Source: Methanomethylovorans hollandica DSM 15978 (lineage in GTDB: Archaea > Halobacteriota > Methanosarcinia > Methanosarcinales > Methanosarcinaceae). From it: a stretch of DNA of 64,000 nucleotides. Under the pieces are notes generated by a model. The model saw nothing but the letters and a program-made list of their open reading frames with translations, ran no database searches and was not told the origin of the DNA. How positions within the stretch are numbered: the first letter of the stretch is position 1; every line of letters starts with the position of its first letter. The stretch covers positions 744,001 through 808,000 of the forward strand of contig NC_019977.1 of the NCBI RefSeq assembly GCF_000328665.1, in the 5' to 3' direction. The position numbers were made by a program, and so were the translations under genes. Of the stretch, positions 10,227-12,829 are shown one piece after another.

Positions 10227-10688
10227 ATGTTCGATATTATTGCCGTGGATATTTCTGGAAGACATGTAGAAGATGGAGAATACTTCATGGTATGCGTGGC
10301 AGTGTCATTTTCTGTGTTTCCTGACCATATCGATAAGACGCATCAGATCAATATCCGCCATTTCACAAGCAGGAATGCCCCTGAAATTAATGATGTGGCC
10401 ACAATGGTAGAAAAGACCGTGGAAGGCCTTAATCCTCAGGCTACCATCGTAATGGAGGCAGGGGATATGTTCAACAGGCCCCAGTGGCTGGTCACAGGCA
10501 TGTTCTCCCGGGATTTTAAATACCAGGAATCTCTGAGCGAGCGCAGGGCCATAGAGATAGCACACCATATTTCCATGAGCGCCAGAAGGCTACTCAAGGT
10601 AAAGTGCGCCTTTAGTCTTCAGTCTGATAAAGAGGATCTTATAAATGAAAAAAGTGATCGTTGTGCAGAGGGTAGATCCCGACAGTGA
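10227..10688 (+). CDS. Conserved archaeal protein, DUF2209-like
   Basis: 153 residues. Starts MFDIIAVDISGRHVEDGEYF, a strand-rich beginning with an Asp as in RNase H-like folds, followed by a helical segment ending SERRAIEIAHHISMSARRLL. I recall similar archaeal proteins filed as DUF2209 but cannot verify it. It sits 9 nt behind endA and its last 44 bp overlap the start of hflX, so these three genes form a translationally coupled operon. No function can be given. Confidence 0.7.
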   Translation: MFDIIAVDISGRHVEDGEYFMVCVAVSFSVFPDHIDKTHQINIRHFTSRNAPEINDVATMVEKTVEGLNPQATIVMEAGDMFNRPQWLVTGMFSRDFKYQESLSERRAIEIAHHISMSARRLLKVKCAFSLQSDKEDLINEKSDRCAEGRSRQ

Positions 10689-11889
10689 TGATCTCAAGAA
10701 CAAAAGACAGTTAGCTGAGTTGAAGGACCTGGCCTTTGCTGCTAATTACTCTGTTACAGGAGAGGTCATACAGTCCCGGTACCCTGATAAAAAATATCAG
10801 CTGGGCAAAGGTAAGGTGCAGGAACTTGCATTGTCCGTGAAAGCTCTGGATGCAGAAAAAGTGATCTTCTGCAATGAACTGAGCAGTATGCAGCTATATA
10901 ACATTACAGATACCTGCAAATGTGCGGTCATTGACAAGTTCCAGCTTATCCTGGAAATATTTGCGCTGAGGGCTACCACAAGGCGCGCCAAGCTGCAGGT
11001 TGAGCTTGCAAGGCTTGAATATGAGATACCCAGGGCAAAGATCATTGTATCTCATCTGAAAAAAGAGGAAAGGCCGGGTTTTATGGGTCTGGGTAGCTAT
11101 GAGGATTCCTATGAGCAGGATATCAAAGGGAGGATAGCTCGCATCAAGGGCGAGCTAAGCCACGTGCAGGGCCACAACGAATCCCTGCGCACTTTCAGGC
11201 ACGCTCATGGTCTGTCTATGGTGGCTCTTGCAGGCTATACTAATGCCGGAAAAAGTACGCTGTTCAATGCTCTTATGGAGGAGGATGTGGACGTGGCTGA
11301 TATGCTTTTCACGACCCTCTCTCCGGTTGCCCGCTCCATGGATGTTATGGGGCGCAAGGTAATTCTAACTGATACGGTAGGTTTTATAGAGGACCTGCCT
11401 CACTGGCTCATAGATGCCTTCCGTTCGACCCTGGATGAGATCTTTTTCGCAGATATCATATTGCTTGTAGTGGATGCAAGTGAGCCTCTGGACATAATGC
11501 ACGATAAGTTGCTCACATGTCATGAAACTCTGTGGGAACAGGTACATGATGCGTCTGTGATTACTGTAATGAATAAAACTGATCTCATCAGCCAGGAAGA
11601 GCTTAATGAGAAAATGGAAGCTCTTGGATACCTTGTTCCTAATCCGGTCTATATCTCTGCAAAGACCATGGGCGGTCTGGGTGATCTTAAACAGGCTATA
11701 AGATCTAAGCTTCCAGTATGGGAAAGAAAGGAAATATCAATGCCTTTTTCAAAGCATTCCATGTCAGTTCTTTCCTGGCTTTTCAAAGAAGGGGTAGTAC
11801 ATTCTGTAAAATATACGGATCAGATCCTAGTGGATCTGGAAGCAAGGGAGGAGGTAATAAACAAAGTAATATCTTTTATAGATGTGTAG
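10645..11889 (+). CDS. hflX: Ribosome-associated GTPase HflX
   Basis: 414 residues. N-terminal HflX domain (KYQLGKGKVQELALSVKALD, then VIDKFQLILEIFALRATTRR and the Gly-rich linker ERPGFMGLGSYEDSYEQDIK), long helix, then the GTPase domain from about residue 190: G1 GYTNAGKSTLF, G2 region FTTLSPVARSMD, G3 DTVGFIEDLP, G4 NKTD, G5 SAKTMGG. HflX splits stalled or stressed ribosomes. Last gene of the endA-DUF2209-hflX operon. The reading begins inside the preceding gene, which points to translational coupling. Confidence 0.96.
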   Translation: MKKVIVVQRVDPDSDDLKNKRQLAELKDLAFAANYSVTGEVIQSRYPDKKYQLGKGKVQELALSVKALDAEKVIFCNELSSMQLYNITDTCKCAVIDKFQLILEIFALRATTRRAKLQVELARLEYEIPRAKIIVSHLKKEERPGFMGLGSYEDSYEQDIKGRIARIKGELSHVQGHNESLRTFRHAHGLSMVALAGYTNAGKSTLFNALMEEDVDVADMLFTTLSPVARSMDVMGRKVILTDTVGFIEDLPHWLIDAFRSTLDEIFFADIILLVVDASEPLDIMHDKLLTCHETLWEQVHDASVITVMNKTDLISQEELNEKMEALGYLVPNPVYISAKTMGGLGDLKQAIRSKLPVWERKEISMPFSKHSMSVLSWLFKEGVVHSVKYTDQILVDLEAREEVINKVISFIDV

Positions 11890-11935: not shown

Positions 11936-11946
11936 GTTTATATAAT
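11936..11946 (+). promoter_or_regulatory. TATA box of candidate small RNA A
   Basis: GTTTATATAAT centred 27 nt upstream of position 11968, the first base of the long stem described next; no protein gene starts at that position. Confidence 0.5.
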
Positions 11947-11967
11947 ATCAAGTATGTTAGTGAACAT

Positions 11968-12041
11968 GCGAACGGGTCTCTTCTCAAATGTACCACCAAT
12001 CCTATCCAACCACCCAATACACAACTCCTTAACCCGTTCGC
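11968..12041 (+). ncRNA. Candidate small RNA with 10-bp terminal stem and C-rich loop (copy A)
   Basis: GCGAACGGGT at 11968-11977 pairs perfectly with ACCCGTTCGC at 12032-12041. The 54-nt loop contains almost no G, so it should stay unpaired, and holds ACTCCTTAA, complementary to a Shine-Dalgarno core, plus CCTATCCAACC. Downstream is a T-rich run (TTGCTTCTTATGCTTGTTTA) of the type that ends archaeal transcripts. A well-placed TATA box precedes it. No C/D or H/ACA boxes are present. Design resembles a trans-acting antisense RNA presenting a seed in an open loop, but no target or expression can be shown from sequence. Confidence 0.55.
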
Positions 12042-12157
12042 TTGCTTCTTATGCTTGTTTATTCTAATGAAAACCTTTGTTGTGTTCTCATATGTTTTGG
12101 TACTTTCCGGTAAACAGATGCAGACAATTTATAAGTGATAATCTTTAATCTCATCAT

Positions 12158-12829
12158 ATGAAATTCGACCTGCACGTCCATACGCGTTTTTCAAAAGACA
12201 GTGATGCAGACATTGATGCGATCATTCTTCATGCTAAAAAGAATGGTCTTGATGGTTTTGCAGTATGCGACCATGATGTAACTGGAGGAGGTCCTTTTTC
12301 TGTGCAGCGGGCAGCAGAGCTGGGCTCTGATCTTGTGATCATTCCGGGTGTGGAAATAAGCACTTCAGAGGGGCATCTGCTGGTGCTGGGTATAAAGGAA
12401 AGTATAGAACCAGGTCTCTCCCCGGCTGAGACCATACTCCGGGCAAGAGCACAGGATGCGGTGGTAATATTACCTCATCCTTTCAAGCTCACATCTCATG
12501 GGATAGGATATATCGCGGGTCTTGATGTGGACGCTGTGGAGGTCCTGAATTCCCGCTGCCTTACAGATGGTCCTAATAACAAGGCATGTGCTGCAGCAAC
12601 TTCTCTTGGGATCGCTCAGGTTGGTGGCAGTGATTGCCATGTGCCTGAAATGGTGGGTATTTCGTACACTGAAATAGATGTGCAGGAGAGGTCCTTGGAT
12701 GCTGTCCTTGATGCTATCCGGCAGGGCAAGGTAAGGCCGGGCGGCGGCAAAACCCCAAAGGTATTTGTGATGCGCCAGATGATGAAAAACGCACAAAAAA
12801 GAACAGCTAAAATACTGGGTCTGGATTAA
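12158..12829 (+). CDS. PHP-domain metal-dependent phosphoesterase
   Basis: 223 residues. Starts MKFDLHVHTRFSKDSD with the H-x-H-x-R/H PHP metal motif, then VCDHD, VEISTSEGHLL, LPHPFK and the late GGSDCHVPEMVG motif, so the metal-binding set is complete. Related to the TrpH/YciV group that hydrolyses phosphoester substrates such as nucleoside bisphosphates or short RNA; the substrate here is unknown. A TATA box ATTTATAAGTG at about 12128 predicts a leaderless transcript. Converges with the DUF447 gene so tightly that the two stop codons share the sequence TTAA at 12826-12829. Confidence 0.88.
   Translation: MKFDLHVHTRFSKDSDADIDAIILHAKKNGLDGFAVCDHDVTGGGPFSVQRAAELGSDLVIIPGVEISTSEGHLLVLGIKESIEPGLSPAETILRARAQDAVVILPHPFKLTSHGIGYIAGLDVDAVEVLNSRCLTDGPNNKACAAATSLGIAQVGGSDCHVPEMVGISYTEIDVQERSLDAVLDAIRQGKVRPGGGKTPKVFVMRQMMKNAQKRTAKILGLD

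Follow-up and report, generated by a model that had tools for sequence, protein, structure and literature searches.

OxyS-type small RNAs of E. coli act in oxidative stress and have a redox-sensing activator in control. In the archaeal family of the present locus, sRNA154 and sRNA41 of M. mazei are intergenic RNAs that reportedly act on ribosome binding sites (PMC5867862), and sRNA154, located between MM3337 and MM3338, has the NrpR operator GGTA-N6-TACC (PMC3177094). In the accessible part of the literature, M. mazei is represented by sRNA154, sRNA162 and sRNA41, and 195 sRNAs are described for M. psychrophilus, where the conserved, cold-induced intergenic sRNAs of strain R15 share a promoter motif, the 'cold box' (PMC5378194). 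The MsvR protein of M. acetivorans is a redox-sensitive V4R repressor that binds TTCGTA-N4-TACGAA or, more generally, TTCGN7-9CGAA (Isom et al. 2013, PMC3729527), and it does so only in the reduced state. At the promoter of msvR itself the site sits upstream of the TATA box, over the B-recognition element (BRE), and the motif by itself is insufficient for MsvR binding (PMC3729527). The same report calls the oxygen sensing and response of strict anaerobic methanogens unknown.

The window, i.e. the whole 64,000-nucleotide stretch of the Methanomethylovorans hollandica DSM 15978 chromosome analysed here, carries a hairpin at 11968..12041 (plus strand) that sequence, fold and covariance model mark as the core of a candidate small RNA, the stem-clamp RNA. 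It resembles the OxyS-type RNAs in being short and intergenic and in that a redox-sensing transcription factor would be in control in its relatives, but the sequences are unrelated, the regulator would be a repressor released by oxidation and not an activator, and the window copy has no operator. It differs from sRNA154, which has the NrpR operator, in that the operator of its relatives is TTCG-N8-CGAA. The Methanosarcina orthologue was compared with sRNA41, and the family with the cold-induced sRNAs of strain R15 (PMC5378194, in its accessible part), by description only, and either pair could be identical. Most relatives carry TTCGN7-9CGAA just upstream of TATA, arranged as at msvR, whereas the published candidates of the MsvR regulon precede structural genes, with no RNA named in the accessible part of the report (PMC3729527). 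A report of the stem-clamp RNA family, its stem or its operator was not found in the open-access literature, and the RNA may already be present as an unnamed transcript in the supplementary lists for M. mazei or M. psychrophilus.

The hairpin and its surroundings in the window

The two arms of the closing stem, GCGAACGGGT (11968..11977, plus strand) and ACCCGTTCGC (12032..12041, plus strand), form a perfect 10-bp inverted repeat around a 54-nt loop with one G, giving an element of 74 nt, as the preliminary description had stated. The fold energy of the element is −19.6 kcal/mol, compared with −10.75 ± 2.65 kcal/mol for shuffled sequences (z = −3.3), and 0 of 200 shuffles were as good. Six perfect 10-bp inverted repeats with a spacing of 40-80 nt are present in the window and only this one encloses a loop with less than 5% G; 40 first-order Markov sequences of the window gave no 10-bp repeat at that spacing with such a G-poor loop. 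A tRNA scan gave no tRNA. The absence of a known family is also borne out: Rfam 15 at the gathering threshold gave no match in the window, and Rfam at E <= 1 gave none over the RNA in the window or at the Methanosarcina, Methanolobus B, Methanococcoides and g6 loci. By Rfam and rRNA complementarity the element does not look like a C/D or H/ACA guide RNA either: no guide-RNA family of Rfam matched it, and the longest complementarity of the loop to rRNA is 10 nt, within the range of shuffled loops (9-14 nt). With its stem GCGAACGGG/CCCGTTCGC closing a G-poor loop, the window element falls within the stem-clamp family, which comprises this stem or a compensated variant of it.

The element has the surroundings of a separate gene. 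A TATA box, TTTATATA (11937..11944, plus strand), is centred 27.5 nt upstream of 11968, with an A/T-rich TATA-like element at the equivalent position in the aligned relatives, and a T-rich stretch at 12042..12065 (plus strand) is the probable 3' end or termination region, the 3' flank being T/C-rich in relatives too. Upstream lies hflX (10645..11889, plus strand; domains GTP-bdg_N, GTP-bdg_M and MMR_HSR1), and downstream a PHP-domain gene (12158..12829, plus strand), both kept together with the RNA. The octamer TTTATAAG at 12128-12135 resembles a separate promoter for the PHP gene. The TATA box about 27 nt before the stem, the T-rich run and the two neighbours had all been noted in the preliminary description, and each was recovered here. 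Conservation of sequence, position and stem pairing, together with the TATA box and the T-rich end, argues for its proposal of an independent RNA gene of about 75-100 nt, of which transcription is predicted.

Between the TATA box and the stem (11945-11967) lies a GTTAGTA/GTTTGTAT-like element that is common, as a loose pattern, to 76 of 89 distinct RNAs.

Relatives, synteny and stem pairing

By DNA search, the element was found in five more species of the window's genus (93-96% identity) and in three of a second genus, g5 (77-82%). In the alignment of these nine genomes the flanks vary, and the stem and a 31-nt single-stranded loop core, AATGTACCACCAATCCTATCCAACCACCCAA (11987..12017, plus strand), are identical throughout. 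The covariance search in Methanosarcinaceae suggested in the preliminary description matched 6/6 genomes of the window's genus (g1) and 27/27 of g5 at E <= 1e-14, with weaker matches in other genera. When the whole order was searched, the model matched 66 of its 186 genomes at E <= 0.01, nearly all of them Methanosarcinaceae; the two weak matches outside the family, in G053 and G180, may be due to chance. A pattern made of the stem only, leaving the loop free, has further matches in Methanosarcina, Methanococcoides, a second Methanolobus locus and others, and the reversed stem pattern, used as a control, had 0 matches in 112 genomes. The genus names given for relatives are in part presumptive. 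The loop core was not found in viral contigs.

In most loci examined, the window included, the RNA follows hflX and precedes the PHP gene on the same strand, with between about 50 and 775 bp separating it from the latter. The same locus holds the RNA in g6, as well as in g12, there with a weakened stem; in g9, g7 and g14 the hflX-PHP spacer is only 80-176 bp long and has no such RNA inside. Methanolobus has, besides its hflX copy (type A), an extra copy (type B) elsewhere, beside an ABC permease gene and an inorganic-pyrophosphatase-like gene, and the B copies are dispersed, away from hflX-PHP. Because the hflX-PHP synteny holds, the element at 11968-12041 is, judged by sequence and gene order, one orthologous RNA gene across several Methanosarcinaceae genera, with a stem that barely changes and a loop that has diverged between genera.

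The stem is nearly invariant, the first nine bases of its 5' arm being near-constant across the 89 distinct family RNAs, and it is present in the minimum-energy fold of all 89, a set preselected by a stem filter. Among 20 chosen distinct stems, 98.9% of the cells pair, compared with 36-43% in slid controls, a figure that is inflated because the sequences were chosen by the stem filter. Changes on both sides were found at three of the nine stem pairs, with direct compensating changes in G117 (GTGAGCGGG/CCCGCTCAC) and in G008 (ACGAACGGG/CCCGTTCGT), and three pairs never vary in this sample, which makes them uninformative either way. The preliminary description had named a lack of compensating changes in the stem arms of relatives as evidence against an RNA; such changes are present.

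The MsvR box in relatives

The inverted repeat TTCG-N8-CGAA lies 5' of the stem in 55 of the 89 distinct RNAs, at −49 in 54 of them and at −50 in one; the boxed copies belong to Methanosarcina, Methanococcoides, the second Methanolobus locus (B) and others. This box fits the published TTCGN7-9CGAA motif and likewise stands upstream of TATA, over the BRE. In twelve genomes, a strict box-plus-TATA pattern gave 0-4 sites each, mainly at msvR and at this RNA. A V4R domain lies about 600 bp downstream of one strict site in G067, G106, G110, G010, G013, G011 and G016, and another strict site is this RNA in G067, G110, G022 and G084, the last of which we take to be M. psychrophilus R15, a genome with two copies of the stem-clamp RNA family. 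In G067 and G110 the strict sites are these two and no others, one at the msvR promoter and one at the RNA. In a collection of one genome per species (84,980 species), box and stem at the fixed spacing were found in 36 contigs, as against about 0.01 expected by chance (a hand estimate from base counts). Thirty-five of these contigs are titled Methanosarcina, Methanolobus, Methanococcoides or Methanosarcinaceae, and the title of the remaining one, L319, is only 'Euryarchaeota archaeon'.

The promoter of the window copy has no MsvR box, nor any TTCGN7-9CGAA upstream of its TATA, and the box is also absent from the window's genus, from every Methanolobus A copy and from some extra copies, so that the redox link applies to the relatives but not to the copy in the window. 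The genome of the window has an HTH+V4R homologue at C2:1523205-1523955 whose upstream box is only degenerate, which is consistent with rewiring in this lineage.

The ancestral form persists in Methanosarcina, Methanococcoides, Methanolobus copy B and others. There the thiol redox repressor MsvR, sitting on TTCG-N8-CGAA across the B-recognition element, would probably block transcription, and oxidation would lift the block. Since the operator was lost in the window's genus, the window gene is probably constitutive or otherwise controlled, and likewise the Methanolobus hflX copy. As most relatives carry the MsvR sign before the promoter, strict anaerobes may use the RNA under oxidative stress. 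We put forward tentatively, at a little under even chances, that with it the MsvR redox regulon would gain its first small RNA, one that is Methanosarcinaceae-wide, with the same operator as msvR, released by oxygen, reprogramming expression through an exchangeable loop on a constant stem, and out of redox control in the lineage of the window. A conserved RNA gene with the operator of msvR would give the oxygen response a second, post-transcriptional arm, and the RNA would be a concrete, easily tested member of the MsvR regulon in the genetically tractable Methanosarcina.

Two further sites touch on this control. Outside the window but in the same genome, at about 2352297 of G000:C2 (minus strand), an Fe-S biosynthesis (PF01521) gene has upstream of it a perfect TTCGTAATCGTACGAA box and then a TATA-like stretch, which makes this gene a candidate MsvR target. 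In many Methanolobus A copies (L007, L009, L048-L054) a near-palindrome, GCG(A/T)TATATATATATGC, forms the TATA region and may be another operator that took the place of the MsvR box.

The loop and its possible modes of action

We consider the most probable reading, at somewhat better than even chances, to be a small non-coding regulatory RNA whose loop would pair with mRNAs and which ancestrally would have been under MsvR-type redox control. The near-invariant 9-10 bp stem would close the molecule end to end and keep the long C-rich, G-poor loop single-stranded; type A loops are practically unstructured, at a mean of −0.07 kcal/mol. The loop would be the working part, most likely pairing with one or more mRNAs, and the constant stem would shield the ends and may serve as a handle for a common binding protein. 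Loops are G-poor throughout and their sequence diverges between genera, to a degree that makes one target common to all improbable; with its constant stem and variable loop, the family would be a natural system for studying how the target ranges of small RNAs shift between genera. Action by base pairing, with all its targets, is a prediction, and it was confronted with 2.4 Mb of the window's chromosome, one genome with 2307 predicted genes and start regions; the start calls came from a simple ORF and Shine-Dalgarno (SD) prediction, so a weak targeting signal could be missed. The target prediction suggested in the preliminary description was run on these 2307 regions: duplex energies of the loop showed no excess complementarity over shuffled loops, and a single long antisense target sought in the same genome gave no strong complement.

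The RNA could instead bind a protein, its C-rich single-stranded loop titrating or scaffolding an RNA-binding protein and no mRNA being paired, a reading that we hold to be unlikely, at roughly one chance in four. It would suit the long near-invariant core within two genera, of which the inner 25 nt, GTACCACCAATCCTATCCAACCACC, are intact by inspection in 30 of 33 species with window-type RNAs, the C-richness that the diverged loops have in common (33% C, 6% G), the variation of loop length by AACC/ACCC repeat units, the constant stem and the target search that gave nothing above shuffles. The 31-nt core exceeds a usual pairing seed, which counts against pairing and would also suit protein binding. 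However, beyond C-richness the loops of different genera are unlike, so that a sequence-specific protein would need to co-vary with them, and a candidate protein is lacking. A trans-acting RNA is proposed, with pairing favoured over protein binding, two modes which the evidence separates poorly.

The more specific proposal of the preliminary description, a translational regulator masking Shine-Dalgarno sites by means of ACTCCTT (12024..12030, plus strand), appears improbable, with about half the weight of protein binding. The complement of ACTCCTTA alone occurs in 24 start windows as against 7 mid-gene windows, an excess that any word complementary to AAGGAGT should show; CCUCC-like words are present in several diverged loops, and masking of ribosome binding sites has been reported for sRNA154 and sRNA41 of M. 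mazei (PMC5867862). On the other hand, the conservation of ACTCCTT ends at the window's genus, since Methanolobus type A has AAATTCTATT or similar in its place, and start windows are matched by wobble-allowed loop 8- to 11-mers less often than by most shuffled loops (51-56 of 60 shuffles did at least as well as the loop).

A cis element, i.e. a terminator, attenuator or riboswitch belonging to the hflX 3' end or the PHP leader, would account for the constant strand and position between the two genes, but the RNA has a TATA box to itself, accompanied in many relatives by a separate operator, the PHP gene has its own TATA-like box at a variable distance, and the Methanolobus B copies stand at a different locus. 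Dispersed B copies and separate promoters make a role in cis very improbable. A tiny protein gene is scarcely credible, for the ATG-started frame in the conserved core of the window loop (ATG TAC CAC CAA TCC TAT CCA ACC ACC CAA, MYHQSYPTTQ...) is invariant in the nine-genome alignment at third positions as well and the loops of other genera are unrelated. The short ORF was rejected: a one-base deletion breaks the frame in G081, and the ATG is lost in G091 and G092.

Additional copies of the RNA were also observed. Two Methanococcoides loci (L089, L091) have two tandem copies between hflX and PHP, each with its own MsvR box, and in L118 and L143 a second RNA lies near the first; it has the stem GCGGACGG/CCGTTCGC and a TTCG-N8-CGAA box to itself. 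Further copies without the box occur at L069:420-750, L071, L072, L073 and L079; within this set, a Methanosarcina-group genome has two copies in tandem whose stem is compensated, and g4 genomes have short copies sharing another promoter motif. Finally, L083:1914-1993, from a genome presumed to be M. psychrophilus, holds a G-poor hairpin whose stem (GGCCGGG/CCGGCC region) is unrelated and which may be a further RNA built on this plan.
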